This document shows, one piece after another, positions 294-17,851 of a stretch of DNA of 62,156 nucleotides. Within the stretch, counting starts at the first letter, position 1. Each line of letters opens with the position of its first letter. The DNA comes from Parapedobacter tibetensis (GTDB taxonomy: Bacteria; Bacteroidota; Bacteroidia; Sphingobacteriales; Sphingobacteriaceae): positions 454,567 to 516,722 of the forward strand of contig NZ_JAMXBE010000003.1 of assembly GCF_024704835.1 (NCBI RefSeq). The letters run 5' to 3'. The notes under the pieces were generated by a model that ran no database searches, was not told where the DNA came from, and saw nothing but the letters and a program-made list of their open reading frames with translations. The position numbers were made by a program, and so were the translations under genes.

Positions 294-619
294 AGTTACA
301 AGCGGATGCAGCGAATGCATTTTTTCTCAAGTAACATGGCAAGGCCGCTGTATGTACTGAAATGAGGCCAATTCAGGTTTTAAGCTAGCTCGCTATCGCA
401 AAAAAGTAACATACCACGAGGTTGGAGACTATTGTGCACACTTCAATTTCTTATGGATACAGTACGTTTATGATCGAGACTATTGCATAAATTATTTTGG
501 CCGGTATTATAACCTATGTGTTTTCGCTAACAGGACCATTGGCCGTACTTCGAATTAGTGTCAACGGATTAACAGCAGCCCGTTGCAGAAGCAAAAGTAA
601 ATCTAACGTGAGACTCACC

Positions 620-683
620 ATTGCAAAAAGTATTCAGTGAGTGTCTATTTGACCTCACCCTGCGGCTGTACAAGCAGCCTCGA
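620..683 (-). ncRNA. Guide-RNA scaffold copy 3 (distal)
   Basis: On the minus strand this copy folds into GGCTG-CAGCC (loop CTTGTA), then GTGAGGTC paired with GACACTCAC (one bulged A), then an A/T-rich linker ending TTTTTGCAAT. This is the order seen in Cas12f guide RNAs: scaffold at the 5' side, repeat end, guide at the 3' side. The following guide would start GGTGAGTCTCACGTTAGATT. It shares about 85% identity with the other two copies. Confidence 0.65.
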
Positions 684-787
684 TAACGAAGTTTCTTAGT
701 TTTTCCAATCGAGAGAATTGCCTATACCTATTCCCACAGCCTTCTCAGCAAGGCTCACCCTTTGTATAGTGCATTAACCTACCGTCT

Positions 788-854
788 ATTGCAATAAATA
801 GTATTCAGTGAGTGTCAATTTCGCCTCACCCTACGGCTGTACACGCAGCCTCGA
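788..854 (-). ncRNA. Guide-RNA scaffold copy 2
   Basis: This copy has the same two hairpins as its relatives: GGCTG-CAGCC (loop CGTGTA) and GTGAG-CTCAC, and ends TTTATTGCAAT on the minus strand. The inner part of the second stem is weaker here (one mismatch). The presumed guide starts AGACGGTAGGTTAATGCACT and is followed after a short distance by a further TATACAAA repeat end at 761-768. Confidence 0.62.
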
Positions 855-1926
855 AAATTTCAACATTCTTTTTAGAAAGGTCATTCTTGAATAATCTTAG
901 TACTTAATTTCATATTGTGATAGGCATTATCTATCTCCAGTCTTTGTCGAGGCACTAGCAGTTGTATATTCCTTTCAAATTGGTGTTCGTAGCAGTCCAA
1001 TCCCCCATAGGTTTCACAGCAAGGCCGTTGTATAATTCTGAATAATAAGCGCGCCTGCTTGACAACGTTGTAATAAGCGCTATGACTTTTAGCACATTTG
1101 CAGCCTAGACCGTTGCAAAAATTTGATCTGACAGAAAGACGCCTTTGTAAAGCTTTAAACGAAAAAGATGTGGTTCTCTGCCGTTGTATACTGAAACGAA
1201 AACCATTCCACAACTTCATATAAGTAAGCGCCAACCATTGTATATGGGATCGATGCCCGACAAGAGATCCTCCGATGTTCGTGGGTCGGGTGTTCACTTA
1301 GTTGTATAGGTACGGTATCATCAACATCAGGAACTAATTTCCGGGAACACAGAACAAGCAGGGATTGTATATGGTAGTTACAGCGTTTTTACCCTTGTGT
1401 TTTCATCAAGTTTTGAGACTATTGTATATGTTAATCCATTATCTCCAAGGTCCACGGCAGGAGTGTTGTACTTTTAATACTTTCATCAGACGAGCGAATT
1501 GCAGGTACTTGGGAACAGCAGCCCAACGGGAGAACAAGAGCAAGGTTGTATATATTCAAATGCCTGCGATATTTCAAAAGGCACCGTCAAGAGCACTGTA
1601 TATATGCCTTATCGCCAAATGTTTCCAACTAGGAGCCGTTGCCTATTTCTGACCAATTCGAGCGTAAGAAACTACGGTTGTATACGATACGTTTGTGAAG
1701 GAGACTTGCATAAATACCATTCTTTTGAAGCGGTTTGTATTTCGAGCTATGCGATTATTTTCGATTTAGTTTTTTACTCGCGGATTTACAGCAAGTGCAT
1801 TGTCCATACTATCGAGTGAACAGCAGCCCGTTGTAACGCACGGCTTATACGGCAGTGCGTGTTAATTTTTCAAAAACCGACCCCATTGTAATCATACATC
1901 AATTCCAACAATAGGGAAGCTTTCCC

Positions 1927-1992
1927 ATTGAAAAAAAGTATTTAGTGAGTGTTTCATTTAACCTCACCCTACGGCTGTACAAGCAGCCTCTA
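1927..1992 (-). ncRNA. Guide-RNA scaffold copy 1 (next to dCas12f)
   Basis: The copy begins 32 nt beyond the dCas12f stop codon, on the same strand. Its second stem is GTGAGGTT paired with AACACTCAC where copy 3 has GTGAGGTC with GACACTCAC: a C-G pair changed to T-A, which is covariation. It ends TTTTTTTCAAT and the presumed guide is GGGAAAGCTTCCCTATTGTT. The position invites production of the guide RNA from the 3' end of the sigma-dCas12f transcript, as for omegaRNAs of TnpB (inference). Confidence 0.65.
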
Positions 1993-2024
1993 ACATTTCA
2001 AAGAACGTTGAAGCGGGTGAATAA

Positions 2025-3119
2025 CTATTCCTCAATCACATTGATTCCTACTTTCTTCGCTTTATAGGCGATCTTTTCTTTCAGTCCGTAATAGCTCCAA
2101 TTGCGGAGCAGGAATTCCTCTTCCTTAGCCACCTCTTCTTTCTGCTGCTGGTTCACCAACAAGAGCGTACCCGCCTGCGTTTTGATGCACAGGTCAATCA
2201 GCCTACGACTGTACAGGTGCAATCGGTTATCGACGTACCGTATTTCCTTCGCATCCCAATCCTCCAAACTTTTCAGCTTGCGCCTGCGGCCTTTGCCCGG
2301 CCGGTTGTAGGTGGAACCCCGTTGTAAGCGGTGCCGCGCGGCCTGTATAGCCAGCCTCCGGTGCAGGAATTCCTCCTTATTGCCAATCTGGAACTGTTCC
2401 TTACCAACCTTCACTACGACGGGGTGCTCGATGGAAAGTGACGCTTCGGCAATTACCGAATCCTTTAACTGGTGTTCGTCACGCTCCATCTCGAAGGCTG
2501 CCAACAAGTACAGCTTGCCCTTGTCAATTTTTAGGGAACTGGTGCAGAGCTTCAGCGTTCCGGCCAGCGTCCGCTGCAACAGGACTTTCTTATCTGACCT
2601 GTCTTTGCCCAAATAGGTCTTGAATGGGATTTTGAACAGCTTGAATTTGAAATCCCTACCTTTCTCATCGTTTTCCAGTTTGAGTTTATCCGCTCCGAAA
2701 GGCATGGGGATGCTACGTTTGTAATTGCGTAGTGTCTTTTCCCCCTTCCAATATGCACTTCGTTCAGAGTTATAGATGCTGTGCAACGTGTTGTTCAGGT
2801 TGGAAAAAATATTGGAGGGCATTTTGCCCAAAAAATTGCTTGAGAGGATACGATATGTCGTGTTCATGCGAGAGGAATTCAGTATGCCGTCTTCCTCTTT
2901 CTTATAATCGGCCAGCTTAACCTTCACCTCGTCGGTGAAGTAAATCAAATCCTTCACCCGATCCTGTACATACAGGTGGGTGAAAATCAGGTTGGCTGCT
3001 TGGAACGATAAAAATTGCCACTCATACAACTGCTTATAGTAGGCGTCCTTCTGCGCTTTGTCATCACAGTCCACGTACACCTGTATTTTTCGTGTCAGGA
3101 TGATGGTCTTCTTTTCCAT
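2025..3119 (-). CDS. Nuclease-dead, truncated Cas12f-like RNA-guided protein (dCas12f)
   Basis: This 364-residue protein resembles miniature Cas12f/TnpB effectors. Its C-terminal half has the family phrases QIGNKEEFLHRRLAIQAARH (245-264), GRRRKLKSLEDW (277-288) and LRNWSYYGLKEKIAYKAKK (338-356). The RuvC sites are lost. At RuvC-I the phrase SLSIEHPVVV (227-236) has Ser227 where active proteins have Asp. At RuvC-II, LLLVNQQQ has Asn323 in place of Glu. The chain ends at VIEE, just before the zinc finger (YTSQ-C-x2-C) and the RuvC-III Asp. It should therefore bind guide RNA and DNA without cutting. I chose the ATG at 3119, four bases after the sigma stop; an in-frame ATG at 3170 would add 17 residues overlapping the sigma gene. 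Alternative reading: a decayed TnpB, but the intact frame, sigma partner and array argue for use. Confidence 0.85.
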   Translation of the reverse strand: MEKKTIILTRKIQVYVDCDDKAQKDAYYKQLYEWQFLSFQAANLIFTHLYVQDRVKDLIYFTDEVKVKLADYKKEEDGILNSSRMNTTYRILSSNFLGKMPSNIFSNLNNTLHSIYNSERSAYWKGEKTLRNYKRSIPMPFGADKLKLENDEKGRDFKFKLFKIPFKTYLGKDRSDKKVLLQRTLAGTLKLCTSSLKIDKGKLYLLAAFEMERDEHQLKDSVIAEASLSIEHPVVVKVGKEQFQIGNKEEFLHRRLAIQAARHRLQRGSTYNRPGKGRRRKLKSLEDWDAKEIRYVDNRLHLYSRRLIDLCIKTQAGTLLLVNQQQKEEVAKEEEFLLRNWSYYGLKEKIAYKAKKVGINVIEE

Positions 3120-3123
3120 GGGC

Positions 3124-3942
3124 CTATGCAGATTTTTTAGTTTTCCGGATGACGGCATATGCCTGTACAAATAGCGATTTCACTTTGGAATCATCCAGTT
3201 GCAGGGCTTCGGCGATTTCCTCGAAGGAGTATTGCAGGTCATACCGCATGGCCAATACCTGCGCCTGTTCATCGGTAAGCATGCCTTCGGTGACAATCGG
3301 CTTCATGCGCGTTGCGCTGTCCAGCTTGGCCGTATCGGAGAGCGCGGCTTTCAGGTTGGCAACACACTGCTCCACACGCTGGGCTACCTCGTAGTCCGAA
3401 ATGCCACCAAGGTGATACGCCACACGTTCATAACTGAAATCATATTTCAGGCACAGTTTGATGAACAGTTGTTGCTGGTTGTCGAGGTGGGGCAATAAAC
3501 CATTGAGCTTTTCCAAATGACGCTGCTTTTCTTCCTCCAGTTGTTCGAGATAAACGGCATCTTCCTCCTGTTCTTCCTCCAACTCGTAGCCCAGCATGAA
3601 CTCCTGAAAATCCTCGATGCCGTCCAAACGTAACATGCTCCGGTGGAAACGATTTATCGTTTTGCCATAATATGCTTTTCCGGCCTCCCGAAGCTGCAAG
3701 CCAAGAAATTCATGCAAATGAGGCACATCACGGATAATGCCGCGCATAATCCATAGCCTTAAAAACGCTTCTTGTGCCATGGCATGGGCCACCACATCTT
3801 CTTTCACGAATCGGTATGCGCGGTAGGCATAATGTCCATAATAGGCATTGTAAAAATAATTGAGGCCTTCTTCATGGCCTGCCTTCAACTCTGCAAAATA
3901 CTTTTCGGCGTTCTTGTTGGATTTGAGTACACGTTTTATCAT
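3124..3942 (-). CDS. ECF-like sigma factor partnered with dCas12f
   Basis: This 272-residue protein has a sigma region 2 at about 15-100 (FYNAYYGHYAYRAYRFVKED, then AHAMAQEAFLRLWIMRG). An acidic stretch follows at about 119-140. A region-4-like helix-turn-helix is at about 143-200 (LPHLDNQQQLFIKLCLKYDF, SYERVAYHLGGISDYEVAQR) and a second one at about 221-267 (LTDEQAQVLAMRYDLQYSFE, EIAEALQLDDSKVKSLFVQA). Usual ECF factors have about 190 residues and a single region 4. The gene lies directly upstream of dCas12f with a 4-base gap, so the two are surely co-transcribed. No anti-sigma gene is adjacent. In the proposed role, dCas12f and guide RNA choose the site and this sigma brings RNA polymerase. 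Confidence 0.8.
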   Translation of the reverse strand: MIKRVLKSNKNAEKYFAELKAGHEEGLNYFYNAYYGHYAYRAYRFVKEDVVAHAMAQEAFLRLWIMRGIIRDVPHLHEFLGLQLREAGKAYYGKTINRFHRSMLRLDGIEDFQEFMLGYELEEEQEEDAVYLEQLEEEKQRHLEKLNGLLPHLDNQQQLFIKLCLKYDFSYERVAYHLGGISDYEVAQRVEQCVANLKAALSDTAKLDSATRMKPIVTEGMLTDEQAQVLAMRYDLQYSFEEIAEALQLDDSKVKSLFVQAYAVIRKTKKSA

Positions 3943-4086: not shown

Positions 4087-4094
4087 TATATTTG
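4087..4094 (+). promoter_or_regulatory. -7 box close to the XRE start codon
   Basis: TATATTTG matches TAnnTTTG and ends three bases before the ATG at 4098, so the transcript would be leaderless or nearly so. A TTG lies 24 bases upstream (4060-4062), a little farther than usual. Confidence 0.4.
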
Positions 4095-4097
4095 AGC

Positions 4098-4544
4098 ATG
4101 AAGAATGAAAATTTTGAACATGAAGAAGTACATCTAGGGCACAATGTCCAACGCATCCGTGAGATAACGGGTATGAAACAGTATGAGCTGGGTCAACGCT
4201 GCAACGGCTGGAGCCAGCAGCAGATATCCAAGCTGGAACAATCCGAGTTTATTGATGATGCCAATATTGCCATCTTAGCAGCGGGGTTGGGCGTAACACC
4301 GGAGTTTGTCAAGAATTTTAAAGAGGAAAAGGTTGTCTACAACATCCAAAGCAATAATAGCTTGCACGACGCCTCGACCCAACATTATCGTTCAACCATA
4401 AACAATGAAGTACCCAAAAAACTGCTTGAGTTATTCGACAAATTTTTGGAAGAAGACCGAGCCAAAACCGAATCCATTGCAAACCTAAGCAAAGCGGTGC
4501 TGGATTTAGCGGAAGAGGTGAAGAAACTGAAGAAGGAAAACTAA
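4098..4544 (+). CDS. XRE-family helix-turn-helix regulator
   Basis: This 148-residue protein has an N-terminal Cro/CI-type helix-turn-helix at about 12-75 (LGHNVQRIREITGMKQYELG, then WSQQQISKLEQSEFIDD and LAAGLGVTPEFVKNF). The C-terminus (about 105-148) is rich in Leu, Lys and Glu in heptad style and is probably a coiled coil for dimerisation. The upstream TTG at 4092 is in frame, but the ATG at 4098 is preferred. It is divergent from the sigma-dCas12f operon and shares an intergenic region with two palindromes, so it probably regulates itself and perhaps the operon. Confidence 0.75.
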   Translation: MKNENFEHEEVHLGHNVQRIREITGMKQYELGQRCNGWSQQQISKLEQSEFIDDANIAILAAGLGVTPEFVKNFKEEKVVYNIQSNNSLHDASTQHYRSTINNEVPKKLLELFDKFLEEDRAKTESIANLSKAVLDLAEEVKKLKKEN

Positions 4545-4746: not shown

Positions 4747-7593
4747 ATGGACATCTTACTATATAACGACTTCGAATACCATCAATTAAAAGACAAAGTC
4801 CAGAAGACGCTAAGCTTCTTGAAGGAAGGGGATTTCCGTGCAGCCGACGTAAAAAAAATGCCCAATCAGGGCTATTACCGGGCTAAGCTCGATGATACCA
4901 ACCGCCTGCTTTTCACCATCGGCAGTTACCAGGGCCGGAAGTATGTGTTTGTGCTGGAAGTCATCCTCAACCACAACTACAGCCGTTGTCGATTCCTCAA
5001 TGGTGTGAAGGTGGATGAGAACAGGCTACAGCCCGTTTACGCCGAACAAGAAACGGAGGGGCATGAGGTGGAAGTGAGTTACGTGAATACGAGCAAGAAA
5101 AAATTCCACATCCTCGATAAGCTTCTCTCGTTTGACGATGCGCAGGACACCATCATCGACCTGCCCGCGCCGATCATCGTTATCGGCCCGGCGGGAAGTG
5201 GAAAGACCGCTCTTATGCTTGAAAAAATAAAGGCACTCTCCGGCAATATCCTGTACGTTTCCCTATCGCCCTATCTGGTGGAGAATGCCCAAAACTTGTA
5301 TGCCGCCTACGGCTACGATAATCCAAAGCAAACGGTGGAGTTCCTCTCGTTCAACGATTTCCTCGACACCGTGGAGGTAGCCGAGGGGAAGGAGCTGACC
5401 TTTCGGGTGTTCAACGAGTGGGCCAGCCGCTACAAGCAAAGCTACAAGATCAAGGACACGCATAAACTCTACGAGGAGTTTAAGGGCGTACTTACCGGCT
5501 CGGCCATTGACAAGGCCCACCTTAGTGCCGAGGATTACCTTGGGCTGGGCATTCGGCAGTCCATCTTCCAGCAACAAGATCGCCCCGCTGTACATGAACT
5601 GTTCATGAAATACCTCCACTGGCTGGAACAAGGGGGCTACTTCGACAGCAACATCCGCTCTTTTCACTTGCTGGAGCGGATATCGCCGCTGTACGACTAC
5701 GTGGTGGTCGACGAGGTGCAGGACATTACCAACGTACAGCTTTATGCCATATTGAAATCGCTCAACGAACCCGTGAATTTTTTGCTGTGCGGCGATTCCA
5801 ACCAAATCGTACACCCTAACTTTTTTTCCTGGTCACAGGTAAAGACGCTGTTTTACCACCAAGATCTATCGGCGCAAATCATCCGCGTGCTGGCCACCAA
5901 CTACCGCAACACGCCGGAGGTGACGGCCATTGCCAACCGCCTGCTGCTAATCAAGAATGCTCGCTTCGGCTCCATCGATAAGGAAAGCACCTACTTGGTA
6001 CAGGCCAACTCGGCTTTCCAAGGCATCGTGGAGCTTTTGCCAAATACCCCGAAGGTGAGCGCCGATCTCAACAGCAAAACGAAGCAGTCGGCCAAATTTG
6101 CTGTACTGGTATTGCGTGAGGAAGACAAAGCTGCGGCGCGCAAGTTTTTCCAAACACCCCTGCTCTTTTCCATCCATGAGGCTAAGGGCCTGGAATATGA
6201 AAACATCGTCCTGTTTAACATGATATCCGGCCACGACAAAACGTTCCATGAGATTACCGATGGGGTAACTGCTGCCGATCTGCAAAGCGCAGCTATCCAC
6301 TTCGCGCGCGCAAGGGACAAAACCAATCGCTCGTTGGATGAATTCAAGTTTTACATCAATGCGCTCTATGTGGGGATGACCCGCGCCATCAAAAACCTGT
6401 TTCTCGTGGAGTCTAACAGTAAGCATGAACTGCTGAAACTCCTTGACCTCATCGATGTAAGGCAGCAGACCTCGCTCAAAAACCAGGCTTCCTCCAAGTC
6501 GGAATGGCAGAAGGAGGCGCGCAAGCTGGAAATGCAGGGTAAGCAAGAACAGGCAGACGCCATCCGCGAGCAGATCCTCCAAATCAAGCCCATCGAATGG
6601 GAGGTGATTACCCCTGAAACGTATGGCAAATTGCTGGAACAGGCACTGCACCCCGACCATTTCAACAAGAAAGCCAAAGACCGGTTATTCCAGTATGCGG
6701 TTTACTACCGCTTGGCGGAACCGCTCCGGCAACTGTCGGCCCTGAAATACCGTCCCGCCGACCGATGGGAACAAGGGGAAAAAACACTCCTCAAGCGGCT
6801 TTTCCAACCTTATTTGGCCGACAACCTCAAGGCTGTCCAGCCCATATTCCAACGCTATGGGGTCGACTTCCGTGATGAGTTTAACCTCACTCCGCTACTG
6901 ATATCGGCGCGATTCAACGCCGCGAACATCATGGACCACCTGTTGAAGCAGGGTGCAAAGGTCGACACGACGGACAATGATGGCATCAACCCCCTGCGGT
7001 GGCTGCTGCGTAACCGGCGACAGGGTGAACATGGGCCGGTCGACCTCCTTGGGCGGCACTACGCTTCGCTCAAAACTGCCCCCTTGCGGATTCGTGTGGA
7101 AAAAAGGCTCGTCAAGCTGGAAAGCCACCAAGCGGAATACCTGATGCTCAACTTCATGCTCGCCTCACTGAAAGAACAGTTGATTTTGGGCACCCAATAC
7201 GGCCCCTGGAGGGCAAACAACCCCCGGCCGGCGTTCCAGGCGCAGGATTTCATCGACTTCTACGAGGGGCTTGGCGAGCAGGTTGTTCCCGAATACCGTA
7301 CCCAACGGCCATACATCAGCAGCATCCTGGCCAAAAACGAAATCGGCCGCGATGACCCGCACGATAGACAACTATTTGTGCGGGCACAGCATGGCTACTA
7401 CCTGCCCCATCCCAACATGGAACTGCCCGTGGGCAATGGCTGGAAGAACATTTATGACCTCGTGGGTCTCGATGAAATCAAAAACATGGAGCATCGCTTC
7501 AACACCGGTTTCCTCAACGTCATCGAACGCTTCCGGAAGTATTGGGAAGAAAATCCGGATGCTCGGGTGAAGCACACCATACGGATAAAATGA
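4747..7593 (+). CDS. UvrD/Rep-like superfamily 1 helicase with RelE-like N-terminus and ankyrin-like C-terminus
   Basis: This is a 948-residue protein. Residues 1-90 (DILLYNDFEYHQLKDKVQKT, RAKLDDTNRLLF) look like the small RelE/HigB-type fold found fused to some helicases. Walker A is GPAGSGKTA (147-155). Walker B is VVVDEVQD (319-326). Then come LLCGDSNQIVHPNFFSW, the motif ATNYRNTPEVTAIANR, SIHEAKGLEYENIVLFNM and NALYVGMTRAIKNLFLVES (motif VI), all as in UvrD helicases. Around 706-760 NLTPLLISARFNAANIMDHL and TTDNDGINPLRWLLRN resemble two ankyrin repeats. Such helicases often sit in defence islands, but no known defence partner is adjacent, so its role is open. The GC-richer coding differs from the AT-rich array beside it. 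Confidence 0.8.
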   Translation: MDILLYNDFEYHQLKDKVQKTLSFLKEGDFRAADVKKMPNQGYYRAKLDDTNRLLFTIGSYQGRKYVFVLEVILNHNYSRCRFLNGVKVDENRLQPVYAEQETEGHEVEVSYVNTSKKKFHILDKLLSFDDAQDTIIDLPAPIIVIGPAGSGKTALMLEKIKALSGNILYVSLSPYLVENAQNLYAAYGYDNPKQTVEFLSFNDFLDTVEVAEGKELTFRVFNEWASRYKQSYKIKDTHKLYEEFKGVLTGSAIDKAHLSAEDYLGLGIRQSIFQQQDRPAVHELFMKYLHWLEQGGYFDSNIRSFHLLERISPLYDYVVVDEVQDITNVQLYAILKSLNEPVNFLLCGDSNQIVHPNFFSWSQVKTLFYHQDLSAQIIRVLATNYRNTPEVTAIANRLLLIKNARFGSIDKESTYLVQANSAFQGIVELLPNTPKVSADLNSKTKQSAKFAVLVLREEDKAAARKFFQTPLLFSIHEAKGLEYENIVLFNMISGHDKTFHEITDGVTAADLQSAAIHFARARDKTNRSLDEFKFYINALYVGMTRAIKNLFLVESNSKHELLKLLDLIDVRQQTSLKNQASSKSEWQKEARKLEMQGKQEQADAIREQILQIKPIEWEVITPETYGKLLEQALHPDHFNKKAKDRLFQYAVYYRLAEPLRQLSALKYRPADRWEQGEKTLLKRLFQPYLADNLKAVQPIFQRYGVDFRDEFNLTPLLISARFNAANIMDHLLKQGAKVDTTDNDGINPLRWLLRNRRQGEHGPVDLLGRHYASLKTAPLRIRVEKRLVKLESHQAEYLMLNFMLASLKEQLILGTQYGPWRANNPRPAFQAQDFIDFYEGLGEQVVPEYRTQRPYISSILAKNEIGRDDPHDRQLFVRAQHGYYLPHPNMELPVGNGWKNIYDLVGLDEIKNMEHRFNTGFLNVIERFRKYWEENPDARVKHTIRIK

Positions 7594-8989: not shown

Positions 8990-9838
8990 ATGGGTTATGC
9001 GTTGAAGGTAACGATTGACAAGGATTCCGGATTCTGCTTCGGGGTGGTCTATGCCATAGACATGGCGGAGGAAATACTTGAACAGGACGGCTACTTGTAT
9101 TGCCTAGGTGACATTGTGCACAACGATGAGGAAGTGGCCCGGCTCAAGGCCAAAGGGCTTCGCATCATCAGCCACGATAAGCTTCCGGAACTCCAAAACG
9201 AAAAGGTGCTCATCCGGGCCCATGGCGAGGCCCCTGAAACCTACCGCATCGCACTCGAAAATAACATCACACTCATCGATGCCTCGTGTCCGGTGGTGCT
9301 CAAGTTGCAAAATCGGGTGAAGACCTCTCACGACCAGCAGGAAAAAATCCTCATCTATGGCAAACATGGCCATGCGGAGGTCATCGGGCTACAGGGGCAG
9401 ACAAACGGCGAAGCCATCGTATTCCAAGACATTGCCGAACTAGCGGATGTAGAACTGCCCGATAGTTTTACCTTATATAGCCAGACCACCAAAAGTACTG
9501 ATAACTTTTACGCCATCAAGTCGGAACTGCTCAACAGGGGGTATGATGTGAAAGCCAATGATACAATATGCCGCCAGGTTTCCAACCGCTATGAAGAGCT
9601 GGGCGATTTCGCTAGCAAGCATGACAAGGTGGTGTTTGTATCCGGCAAAAAATCATCAAACGGGCGTGTACTGTATGACGTATGCCTCAAAAGCAACCCT
9701 AATAGCTATTTTGTCTCGGACGCTTCCGAACTGAATCCCGAACATTTCAATCCCGGGGATACCGTGGGTATATGTGGGGCCACTTCTACGCCCATGTGGT
9801 TAATGGAGCAGGTGAAAGTTGCGTTGGAAAGCTATTAG
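8990..9838 (+). CDS. ispH: 4-hydroxy-3-methylbut-2-enyl diphosphate reductase
   Basis: IspH carries out the last step of the MEP isoprenoid pathway, giving IPP and DMAPP, with a [4Fe-4S] cluster. The 282-residue protein has the three expected cluster cysteines: Cys16 (GFCFGV), Cys100 (IDASCPVV) and Cys194 (NDTICRQVSNR). Further family motifs are RAHGEAPE, GKHGHAEVIG and QTTKS. Length is normal. The same pathway's dxs gene lies 17 kb away, in no operon with it. Confidence 0.96.
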   Translation: MGYALKVTIDKDSGFCFGVVYAIDMAEEILEQDGYLYCLGDIVHNDEEVARLKAKGLRIISHDKLPELQNEKVLIRAHGEAPETYRIALENNITLIDASCPVVLKLQNRVKTSHDQQEKILIYGKHGHAEVIGLQGQTNGEAIVFQDIAELADVELPDSFTLYSQTTKSTDNFYAIKSELLNRGYDVKANDTICRQVSNRYEELGDFASKHDKVVFVSGKKSSNGRVLYDVCLKSNPNSYFVSDASELNPEHFNPGDTVGICGATSTPMWLMEQVKVALESY

Positions 9839-9946
9839 CACAATTGGACGCGGAGTAAATCTGCAATATCTGTGTCATCAGCGGTCAATCACGTCATCTA
9901 AACATCAAATTATTACCACGTTATCATGCATGCTTTCTCAAATCCG

Positions 9947-9954
9947 TAACTTTG
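9947..9954 (+). promoter_or_regulatory. -7 box of hemH
   Basis: TAACTTTG lies 6 bases before the ATG at 9961, the same close arrangement as at ispH. It favours 9961 over an in-frame TTG at 9952, which is inside the box. Confidence 0.5.
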
Positions 9955-9960
9955 CACGGT

Positions 9961-11031
9961 ATGAGTAAACCGAAAAAGGGAGTGTTGCTAGTCAACCTTG
10001 GTACGCCAGACAGCCCGTCAGTACCGGACGTGAGGCGTTATCTCACAGAGTTTTTGCTGGATGGCCGGGTCATCGACATCCCAGCTTGGCGGCGCACGAT
10101 GTTAGTAAGGGGTATTATTGTGCCGTTCCGCGCACCCAAATCAGCCAAGCTATACCAAGCAATCTGGGGTGAAAAAACGGGGTCGCCTTTGTTGCATTAT
10201 AGCCGCCTCCAGCAGCGGATGTTGCAAGAGCAATTGGGCGACGAATACCATGTGGAGCTGGCCATGCGCTACCAAAATCCGTCCATCGAATCCGCTTTGG
10301 CCAACTTCAAGCAAATGATGGTCGATCGGATCCGAATTATCCCGCTGTTTCCGCAATATGCCTCGGCAAGCACGGGATCTGTCATTGATAAGGTGATGGA
10401 GCTCATCCGTACCTGGCATACGTTCCCTGAACTAGCTATCGTCAATGATTTCTATGAAAACGAATTGATGGTGGAGGTCTTTGCCGAGCATGCCCAAAAG
10501 CACCGCCCCGAAGACTATGATCACTTCCTGTTTAGCTACCATGGCTTGCCCGTAAGGCAATTACGCCATATTGACAACACAGGAACACATGACTGCGATG
10601 AAGCGGGATGCCGCGAACGGATAACAGAAAAAAACAAATGGTGCTATTTGGCACAATGCTATGCCACCACACGCCTGATTACCACACGCCTTGGCATAAA
10701 ATCAGAAGACCATACGGTGTGTTTTCAATCCCGCCTTGGCAAAACCCCGTGGGTGCAACCTTATACCACCGATGTACTTAAGGACGTAGCCCAGAAAGGC
10801 AAAAAGCGATTGCTCGTCTTTTGCCCAGCTTTTGTGTCGGACTGCCTGGAGACCATTTACGAGGTTGGCACAGAATATGCAGATGAATTTAAGGCATTGG
10901 GAGGAGAGAAGGTGCAACTGGTGGAAAGCCTCAACACCCATCCCAAATGGATAATGGCATTACAGCAATTAGCCACAGCTGGAGATTACCTTCCCTACCG
11001 ACAACACAGCGAACTAGGACAGACAATTTAG
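9961..11031 (+). CDS. hemH: Ferrochelatase
   Basis: HemH inserts ferrous iron into protoporphyrin IX in the last step of haem synthesis. The 356-residue protein begins GVLLVNLGTPDSP, has the metal/porphyrin-site phrase FSYHGLPVRQLR with the conserved His, then CYATTRLI, FQSRLGKTPWVQPYT and VFCPAFVSDCLETIYE. Four cysteines are present in HDCDEAGCRE and later, but a cluster cannot be claimed. The stop is followed one base later by the next ATG, so it is probably co-transcribed with the metallophosphoesterase. Confidence 0.96.
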   Translation: MSKPKKGVLLVNLGTPDSPSVPDVRRYLTEFLLDGRVIDIPAWRRTMLVRGIIVPFRAPKSAKLYQAIWGEKTGSPLLHYSRLQQRMLQEQLGDEYHVELAMRYQNPSIESALANFKQMMVDRIRIIPLFPQYASASTGSVIDKVMELIRTWHTFPELAIVNDFYENELMVEVFAEHAQKHRPEDYDHFLFSYHGLPVRQLRHIDNTGTHDCDEAGCRERITEKNKWCYLAQCYATTRLITTRLGIKSEDHTVCFQSRLGKTPWVQPYTTDVLKDVAQKGKKRLLVFCPAFVSDCLETIYEVGTEYADEFKALGGEKVQLVESLNTHPKWIMALQQLATAGDYLPYRQHSELGQTI

Positions 11032-16135: not shown

Positions 16136-17851
16136 CTATAAGTTGCCTTTCCTTAATTCCCCAGTAGCGTAATCCACTGCCCTTGCCGCTAACGCCATGT
16201 AAGTTAGTGAAGGATTTTGTGTGGCTGTAGAGGTCATGCAGGCTCCATCAGTCACAAATACGTTTTTACAGGCATGCAATTGATTCCACTTGTTCAGGAG
16301 CGAAGTCTTCGGATCATGACCCATACGTACTCCACCCATTTCGTGGATGTCTAGCCCTGGTATACGGTCATCATTGCGTGGGCTAATGTTTTTGAATCCT
16401 GCTGCGTCAAACATTTCGCTCATCCGGTCAAAGTAATCCTGCCGCATTTTCCGGTCGTCTTCCTGATAATCTACCGATATGCTAAGCTGCGGTATTTCCC
16501 ACGTATCTTTTTTGTCAGGGTCGAGGCGCACATAGTTGCTTTCCCGTGGCACAGTCTCGCCCATCATGTGCGAATGAACCTGCCAGTTGCCAAGCTGAGG
16601 CTTGATCAATTGATCCTTTAACGTCCCGCCAACCTTTCCGGTATCGCGCACTTCTCCCCTGCGGGCACCGAAAGCCGCGGCCCAGCCGCGCAAAAAATCG
16701 GTTTCTTGTTTATGGAGATTTCGGAAACGGGGAATGTATCCCCCTCCTGCCGGATTCCGCCCGTCGGTTTTGTATTCCAGTAAGCCTTCATAATCCGCAC
16801 TGATGACCGCGCTATAGTTGTGGAAAGCCACATACTTGCCCATCAGTCCGTAGTCATTGCCCAACCCCTCCGGAAAGCGGTTGGATTTGGAATTGAGCAG
16901 GATCAGGTTGGTATTGAGCGCCGAGGCATTGACAAAGATCACCGGAGCGAAAAAATCGATTTCTTCCTTGGTATTGGCGTCGATTACTTTTACCCCTGTG
17001 GCTTTCCCTTTTCCCTCATCATAAATAATGGAGTGTACCACCGAAAAAGGCCGCAATGTAAGGTTCCCTGTTTTTTCGGCCCAAGGTAAAGTGGAAGCAT
17101 TGCTGCTGAAATAACCACCGAATGGGCACCCACGCTGGCATAGCGTCCGGTGTTGGCATTTTACCCGGCCCTGCTCGATATGGATAGGCTGGGGGCTGGA
17201 GAGGTGCGCGCAACGTGCACTGATAAGGTGCCTATCGGGGTATTGCTTTCCCAATACCTGTTTAAAGTGATCTTCTACAGCGTTGAGTTGATATCCGGGT
17301 AGAAATTCCCCATCGGGCAGTGCCGCCACACCGTCCTTATTACCAGAGATACCGGCAAATCGCTCCACATGGCTATACCAAGGTGCAATGTCCCGGTAAC
17401 GGATGGGCCAGTCGACCGCAAAGCCATCACGGGCAGGGCCCTCGAAATCGAAGTCGCTCCAACGTTGTGTTTGACGGGCCCAAGTGAGCGACTTGCCCCC
17501 CACTTGATACCCACGTATCCAGTCAAACGGTTTCTGTTGCACATACGGATGATCTACATCCTTCACAAAAAAATGTTGGGAATCTTCATGGTAGGCATAA
17601 CAGCGGTTGATGACAGGGTTCTTCTTCCGATCTTCAAGTGGTATTTCGTTGCGGTGTTCGAACTCATAGGGATACATATTGGTAGTGGGATAGTCTTTTA
17701 CGTGTTTCACGTCCCTACCTCGCTCCAGTACCAGTGTTTTGAGTCCTTTTTCCGTCAGTTCCTTGGCCGCCCAGCCTCCGCTGATTCCCGATCCGATTAC
17801 GATGGCATCAAAGGTGCGTTCTTTAATGCTGTCTATCGTTATGTTTGACAT
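16136..17851 (-). CDS. GMC-family FAD oxidoreductase (sugar/alcohol dehydrogenase large subunit)
   Basis: The 571-residue protein starts with the FAD-binding Rossmann motif IVIGSGISGGWAAKELTEKG (about 16-35) and an ERGRD acid turn. It ends with the GMC C-terminal region: IHEMGGVRMGHDPKTSLLNK, VFVTDGACMTSTATQNPSLT with the active-site His/Asn area. A Cys cluster (CQHRTLCQRGC) resembles that of gluconate/fructose dehydrogenase large subunits. The gene lies 22 bases after the subunit-3 gene, as in gluconate 2-dehydrogenase complexes. Substrate unknown. Confidence 0.9.
   Translation of the reverse strand: MSNITIDSIKERTFDAIVIGSGISGGWAAKELTEKGLKTLVLERGRDVKHVKDYPTTNMYPYEFEHRNEIPLEDRKKNPVINRCYAYHEDSQHFFVKDVDHPYVQQKPFDWIRGYQVGGKSLTWARQTQRWSDFDFEGPARDGFAVDWPIRYRDIAPWYSHVERFAGISGNKDGVAALPDGEFLPGYQLNAVEDHFKQVLGKQYPDRHLISARCAHLSSPQPIHIEQGRVKCQHRTLCQRGCPFGGYFSSNASTLPWAEKTGNLTLRPFSVVHSIIYDEGKGKATGVKVIDANTKEEIDFFAPVIFVNASALNTNLILLNSKSNRFPEGLGNDYGLMGKYVAFHNYSAVISADYEGLLEYKTDGRNPAGGGYIPRFRNLHKQETDFLRGWAAAFGARRGEVRDTGKVGGTLKDQLIKPQLGNWQVHSHMMGETVPRESNYVRLDPDKKDTWEIPQLSISVDYQEDDRKMRQDYFDRMSEMFDAAGFKNISPRNDDRIPGLDIHEMGGVRMGHDPKTSLLNKWNQLHACKNVFVTDGACMTSTATQNPSLTYMALAARAVDYATGELRKGNL

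Follow-up and report, generated by a model that had tools for sequence, protein, structure and literature searches.

A nuclease-dead Cas12f-sigma locus of Parapedobacter tibetensis with an eroded guide array and guide matches upstream of SusC operons of its own genome

What does a sigma factor do beside a nuclease-dead Cas12f homologue (dCas12f) and a worn array of guides? The question is raised by the minus strand of positions 341-3942 of a 62,156-nucleotide (nt) stretch of Parapedobacter tibetensis DNA (GCF_024704835.1, contig NZ_JAMXBE010000003.1, positions 454,567 to 516,722; hereafter the window), which holds a sigma open reading frame (ORF), a Cas12f-like ORF, three copies of a guide-RNA scaffold and a guide array. 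Nuclease-dead Cas12f homologues with extracytoplasmic function (ECF) sigma factors in Bacteroidota reportedly start transcription at guide-chosen sites, as described in 2025. On sequence evidence, the locus is most probably a dCas12f-sigma system for RNA-guided transcription of SusC operons, and its array would descend from a CRISPR (clustered regularly interspaced short palindromic repeats) array. In this environmental bacterium it looks like a natural programmable gene switch, not a defence system. What is new here, judged by the matches described below, is the eroded array, the handle-anchored targets with a 5′ G in one SusC subfamily, and the guides common to different genera.

The two protein-coding genes are:
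3124..3942, minus strand: ECF-like sigma factor, 272 amino acids (aa), with profile matches and a match to PDB 9n9q_C
2025..3119, minus strand: nuclease-dead Cas12f homologue, 364 aa counted from the ATG at 3119, with PDB and PADLOC matches

The sigma stop codon occupies 3126-3124, and the Cas12f-like ATG follows 4 nt on, at 3119. The sigma ORF matched Sigma70_r4 (3.1e-9), sigma70-ECF (8.8e-12, over the family cut-off) and Sig70_bacteroi1 (1.1e-12, below the family cut-off), and chain C of PDB 9n9q, 'RpoE', was the sole sequence at 0.01 or better (4.9e-34). The Cas12f-like protein was closest to PDB 9n9c, 9n9m, 9n9o and 9n9q, 'Nuclease-deactivated Cas12f' (1.7e-128), and matched PADLOC Cas12f at 2.6e-53; it had no Pfam match above cut-off, and NCBIfam guided_TnpB matched it below cut-off (2.3e-15). 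In the alignment to Cas12f chain 9nzo, a serine stands opposite the first RuvC aspartate (GVDLGI), the second RuvC motif (MERL) lies opposite a gap, and the alignment stops at residue 414 of 506, the C-terminal part being missing from the window protein. We take this aspartate and MERL to be the RuvC catalytic motifs of 9nzo, and judged by them the protein is a Cas12f homologue without an active RuvC nuclease. An ECF-like sigma gene with a dead Cas12f gene 4 nt downstream had been proposed in an earlier reading of the window made without database searches (the sequence-only reading), and the profile, PDB and PADLOC matches confirm it. Since both proteins match chains of one solved entry, 9n9q, the locus belongs to the known dCas12f-sigma kind, and the identity that had been proposed for it holds as far as the sequence tells.

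The same pairing was found in relatives. From a larger group, 301 family genomes were taken, and 71 of these have a dCas12f homologue (threshold 1e-20), the named carriers of the locus being Parapedobacter and Pedobacter species. Among the best-scoring 30 of these 71 genomes, the window's included, a sigma gene lies just upstream of dCas12f on the same strand at 30/30 loci, the first base of its stop codon being 4 to 29 nt ahead of the first aligned dCas12f codon; absence of this pairing from related genomes had been named beforehand as a refutation of the system, and that refutation fails.

A structured scaffold with a guide at its 3′ side adjoins the sigma-dCas12f genes; the structured scaffold repeats noticed in the sequence-only reading amount to three copies:
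1933..1994, minus strand: guide-RNA scaffold copy 1, then a guide from 1926
796..856, minus strand: guide-RNA scaffold copy 2, then guide h791
625..685, minus strand: guide-RNA scaffold copy 3, then a guide from 619

Family scaffolds amount to 47 distinct copies in 46 stretches, some of them overlapping. In an alignment of 41 of these distinct copies, at least 37/41 pair at each of 12 base pairs (40/40 at one), the structure being taken from the same alignment. An Rfam search of the locus gave no matches. In another genus, g16 (L009, L010 and L067-L071; L labels denote DNA stretches), scaffolds lie upstream of sigma and not downstream of dCas12f.

The guides with targets in the window's own genome (G000; other G labels denote family genomes) are:
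1869..1884, minus strand: guide h1888, target G000:C23:324807-324792, 5′ G, 15/16
1814..1829, minus strand: guide h1833, targets G000:C34:1000 and C45:445705, 5′ G, 15/16
1221..1236, minus strand: guide h1240, targets G000:C13:30171 and C25:6621, 5′ G, 15/16; also 15/16 with G246
772..787, minus strand: scaffold-borne guide h791, target G000:C2:17556, 5′ G, 15/16; 16 nt identical in G198 and G246
566..581, minus strand: guide h585, 14/16 to both h1833 targets; 15/16 in G246 after a non-standard handle

These sites came from an anchored scan of both strands of 1.98 Mb of unique sequence (2.01 Mb fetched), or 33% of the genome. The 29 array offsets right after CAAC or CAAT gave six 15/16 matches, 6/6 with a 5′ G, which we take to be the published preference of dCas12f-sigma; the other 1680 offsets gave 136 matches at 15/16, 30 of them with G. 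The expectation for the 29 CAAY offsets is 0.52 (Poisson P 1.7e-5 for six matches, 0.002 when they are counted as four guides). At all four guides the match begins exactly at the handle. The genome has 11 SusC genes in one subfamily (at least 700 bits to the SusC beside the first site; next match 335), and all six sites lie upstream and on the same strand of its members, a position of which the P values make no use.

In about 34 kb upstream of 10 of the 11 subfamily genes, guide matches of at least 14/16 numbered eight on the gene's strand and zero on the other, and 30 guide shuffles in the same DNA gave a mean of 0.3 and a maximum of 2; at 12/16 or better there was no excess (56 vs 56.7). When all 1709 array offsets were compared with the 34 kb, 13 of the 14 same-strand 15/16 matches were those of h1888, h1833, h1240 or h791, which begin right after ACAAY or GCAAT handles, or of adjacent offsets, the remaining one being elsewhere (807). 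The controls yielded four opposite-strand matches at two places, 3 matches for the reversed array and 3 for the complemented array. The subfamily member omitted from the 34 kb, C78, was covered by the 1.98-Mb scan and had no anchored 15/16 match there; it has its own ECF sigma and FecR upstream. Guide starts h766 and h349, of 33, are off by 2 and 1 nt, on which the all-offset scans do not depend. In most cases the own-genome match is at most 15-17 nt long. BLAST of the whole array against the own genome found nothing beginning at a guide start, and when the window and 40 SusC-centred stretches were scanned at 20 nt, the matches stayed at chance (27 at 16/20 or better; five shuffles 18, 26, 17, 24 and 23), probably because the subfamily lay mostly outside the 56 of 176 SusC candidates scored first and because matches end at about 16 nt.

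The distance from site to first long ORF is 52 nt at C23, 363 at C13, 450 at C25, 572 at C45 and 363 at C2; at C34 a start is visible about 400 nt on, and the listed ORF is at 504. The first long ORF is SusC itself at C25 and C45. At the other four sites SusC is preceded by one or more genes, which are small, and thioredoxin (Trx)-like where scanned. Family scans found SusC (TIGR04056) in L089, L119, L131 and L053, and Trx-like genes ahead of SusC in L089, L117 and L119, with L131 below cut-off (L089 and L117 are from the own genome); the SusD-like genes of the target operons were assigned by eye. Five guides thus agree with the conjecture that the guides aim at susC/susD loci, four through their six 15/16 sites and a fifth through a 14/16 match. 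The C34 (L134:1000) and C45 (L137:13705) targets lie within one arm of a long inverted repeat, which in C34 reads GAAGTGTGGGGCTGC ... GCAGCCCCACACTTC. A small regulator-like gene is divergent from several of the target SusC operons (L117:10405-10959, L134, L135, L065 and L052); it matched HTH_3 at 2.7e-7 in L117 and was judged by eye in the others.

Guides of the window recur in the arrays of other genera. With scaffolds masked and a handle required on both sides, in a comparison without shuffle control, guide AGACGGTAGGTTAATG was found at 16/16 in the G198 and G246 arrays, h1240 at 15/16 in the G246 array, and three further guides at 14-15/16:
1348..1363, minus strand: guide h1367, 15/16 in the G171 array; exact 19-nt site in G093, with a 5′ A
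1011..1026, minus strand: guide h1030, 15/16 in the G015 array
745..760, minus strand: guide after handle TATACAAA, 14/16 in the G246 array

When whole units were compared at 12/14 or better, with offsets of up to three permitted, 5/9 units of G246 and 3/12 of G198 matched a window unit, and 50 shuffles gave at most 0 and 1, respectively. The shared guides diverge in sequence beyond about 17 nt, which argues for selection on a short guide.

The array that carries these guides is far from intact:
341..1932, minus strand: degenerate guide array, handle ATATACAAC/T retained and the remaining repeat mostly gone
961..994, minus strand: sole near-complete copy of the genus 36-nt repeat

The array noted in the sequence-only reading is real, but its periodicity was overstated: Tandem Repeats Finder (TRF) reported no tandem arrays in 341-1932, successive handles lie at uneven distances (mostly about 28 to 66 nt), and the repeat survives in one near-complete copy. 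Two features escaped that reading: the array is a CRISPR array that has eroded, and its guides are common to genera. We counted each hexamer of the genus repeat consensus on the minus strand of 341-1932 and in 300 dinucleotide shuffles. The hexamers of the 3′ end, ATATAC (6), TATACA (11), ATACAA (11) and TACAAC (9), were far above expectation (0.59-0.82; shuffle maximum 3-4); there were 4 copies each of TTTGAA and TTGAAA, where 0.9 and 1.1 were expected and shuffles reached up to 4 and 5, and 0-2 copies of every other repeat hexamer. Strong enrichment in the window is confined to the last ~9 nt of the repeat, ATATACAAC, and extends along the whole repeat in G028 and G087. Six genus relatives with the dCas12f locus were read at length. 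Five of them (G028, G087, G045, G057 and G093) have arrays of the 36-nt repeat and about 30-nt spacers, in blocks, and so have the array of near-identical repeats that the window lacks; the array of G003 is more degenerate. Within 2 kb downstream of its dCas12f gene, the window shows 12 handles against 3 matches to the repeat core. In the six relatives the handles/core counts are 10/38, 6/18, 6/13, 10/24, 12/19 and 5/16; core exceeds handles in all six, and one repeat may yield several core matches in this count. That the 3′ end of the repeat alone is kept disfavours unselected decay.

It is nevertheless conceivable, if unlikely, that function is limited to the three scaffold-borne guides, acting as single guide RNAs, and that the rest of the array is a decaying CRISPR relic. 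Relatives have a scaffold end able to form 9 base pairs with the repeat (-6.5 kcal/mol), and 5/6 of the window's array units tested pair weakly with the scaffold end; scaffold-borne h791, for its part, has an own target and 16 nt identical in two genomes of another genus. Neutral decay, however, would wear the handle and the rest of the repeat alike, and the handle is kept. Moreover, the array guides h1888, h1833 and h1240 hold 5/6 of the own targets, and counterparts of h1240, h1030 and h1367 exist in the arrays of other genera.

The leader at the h791 site was analysed further. A search of 399 family genomes for the site pattern (G, then AGACGGTAGRTTAATGC; one mismatch allowed) found 16 places outside arrays, spread over 15 genomes, and a reversed-pattern control gave 3. 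Ten of the 16 precede Trx/SusC-type genes (nine by tblastn, plus the own target), and six have no Trx/SusC-type match within 1.5 kb. Nine of these non-array h791-like sites were taken into an RNA alignment, where they form an RNA-like element whose paired core spans about 150 nt (L172:1463-1647, that is, own genome C2, about 17518-17702; L168-L171, L174, L178, L180 and L182). In it 93.5% of cells are paired and both-side changes occur in 17/41 pairs, with the structure derived from the same alignment; 0/500 shuffles scored as high on four of five measures and 18/500 on the fifth, and sliding the partners collapses the pairing. Rfam gave 11 matches in nine stretches, all far below gathering scores and none over the element. 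Other own-target leaders fold strongly too, by single-sequence prediction without shuffle control.

These leaders could be read in another way, namely that dCas12f-guide complexes repress SusC operons by blocking the polymerase, as is reported of nuclease-dead TnpB regulators, and that sigma has another role. For five of the six own sites the first long ORF does begin some 360-570 nt further on, and these sites lie in the strongly folding leaders just described. We regard this as improbable, given that sigma accompanies dCas12f at all 30 loci, that the solved entry holds both proteins, and that the six own sites are upstream of the operon genes and none is inside.

The spacers of relatives provide a second set of targets. 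Stretches were picked by BLAST matches of the arrays, not by gene, and 86 spacers were cut out by the handle motif, a procedure that misses degenerate units. We obtained 26 anchored sites, 23 at 22/26 or better and three at 21/26 (L122 and L089); 25 are sites of clean-array spacers and one is that of a window guide:
1157..1182, minus strand: guide h1186, 23/26 with 5′ G, a SusC-type operon of G057 lying 295 nt downstream of the site; no own target found

With SusC-type ORFs judged by leader and length, 22/26 sites are upstream and on the same strand of such ORFs, at distances up to 2.7 kb; four have no SusC-type ORF within 4.5 kb, and 0/26 are on the opposite strand. In L119 (G087:C12), four distinct sites lie at about 9118-10495, within 1.4 kb upstream of one Trx-SusC operon, and match spacers from the arrays of three genomes (G057, G028 and G087).

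For P. koreensis, P. indicus and P. luteus, CRISPR elements have been described and interpreted as phage-related (PMC7500135). Cas1 (PF01867) was not found in the window's genome (assembly 99.82% complete), nor in G093, G068 and G078; it was found in G045, G087, G003 and G028 and partially in G057, that is, in 5/9 genus genomes, one match being partial. A broken defensive CRISPR locus, with self-acquired spacers and SusC matches without function, would agree with this distribution of Cas1, with the CRISPR-like arrays of relatives, whose spacers differ between species, and with the lack of a 5′ G at 18/25 clean-array sites, but is very improbable, as self-acquisition should ignore strand and gene class (yet 22/26 sites fall upstream on the same strand and none opposite) and is further contradicted by guides common to genera, and an effector without nuclease motifs speaks against defence.

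Several results weigh against RNA-guided transcription from a functional eroded array. The genome search of guides that the sequence-only reading had suggested succeeded for five guides, with targets upstream and on the same strand of SusC, and failed for 28 of the 33 window guides, which have no target above chance in the 33% scanned. A looser handle definition (52 offsets) gave seven matches, six with G, and a P of 4.3e-4. The -1 base at the 26 anchored sites was G 8, A 8, T 5 and C 5, with 5′ G at 7/25 clean-array spacer sites and at one of the five sites where spacer and site are in the same genome; the h1367 site in G093 has a 5′ A. A 5′ G at every site, as found for the window's own targets, is therefore not general. 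In G198 and G246, which carry the h791 guide, no site matches the 18-nt pattern with one mismatch or fewer. Loss of Cas1 and erosion coincide in one genome only, since G093, without Cas1, has clean repeats and G003, with Cas1, a degenerate array. Finally, scaffold-end pairing is weaker than with the intact repeat in five of the six eroded units tested, so that either the handle would be enough by itself or only a part of the units would function.

With these points in the balance, RNA-guided transcription of SusC operons is still the reading that we prefer. The locus would make scaffold RNA and short guides, which dCas12f would load. Pairing over about 16 nt, the complex would bind leader DNA beside a 5′ G; the ECF-like sigma, made together with dCas12f, would bring RNA polymerase, so that transcription would begin downstream, towards the gene. 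The targets would be operons of one SusC subfamily, with SusC and a SusD-like gene. The array may have been frozen without Cas1, with only the needed parts kept, the ~9-nt 3′ handle and a 16-17-nt guide. The protein pair, the scaffold, the kept handles, the guide-target matches with their 5′ G and strand bias, the guides common to genera and the lack of Cas1 are seen in the sequence itself; from them we infer expression, loading, R-loop formation, activation, selection on the handles and the order of events. The chances seem about even that a 9-nt handle and a 16-17-nt guide are a sufficient CRISPR RNA (crRNA) unit, and that a CRISPR array without adaptation genes and repeats still works, through dCas12f and sigma, as a conserved cross-genus regulon code for structured SusC leaders.

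Two neighbours deserve mention. An XRE regulator adjoining sigma (4092-4544) was rejected as a part of the system, similar ORFs being present in 4/30 loci, the window among the 4. A UvrD-like helicase of 948 aa with ankyrin-like repeats (4747-7593, plus strand) also adjoins the locus.

A literature search found nothing on dCas12f-sigma among the matches listed, within a coverage that leaves out preprints and most subscription papers. Within the literature searched, this would be the first native map of targets for a multi-guide dCas12f-sigma locus, with six sites for four guides, all linked to one SusC subfamily. The locus also suggests that a CRISPR array became a fixed regulatory code, and the minimal crRNA handle and guide length become directly testable, which is of use for compact gene activators.

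Compared with dCas12f-sigma (PDB 9n9c, 9n9m, 9n9o and 9n9q, of which the sequences alone were compared), both proteins are homologous over most of their length, the genes are adjacent, a scaffold is present and a 5′ G adjoins the six own targets; the eroded handle-only array, the guides of about 16 nt, the three scaffolds and the cross-genus guides would set this locus apart. It shares the protein family, a scaffold resembling a trans-activating crRNA and, in relatives, 36-nt repeat arrays with Type V-F CRISPR-Cas12f, but differs in its missing RuvC motifs, the genome without Cas1, the sigma partner and the targets in its own SusC operons. Nuclease-dead TnpB regulators (TldR) are likewise nuclease-dead RNA-guided proteins aimed at own genes; they use a single guide and repress, whereas a sigma partner and many guides are found here. 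Lastly, as in ECF sigma/FecR control of SusC operons, an ECF-type sigma would drive SusC-type operons, but here an RNA guide would pick the site, in place of a neighbouring sigma/anti-sigma pair like the one ahead of the paralogue C78.

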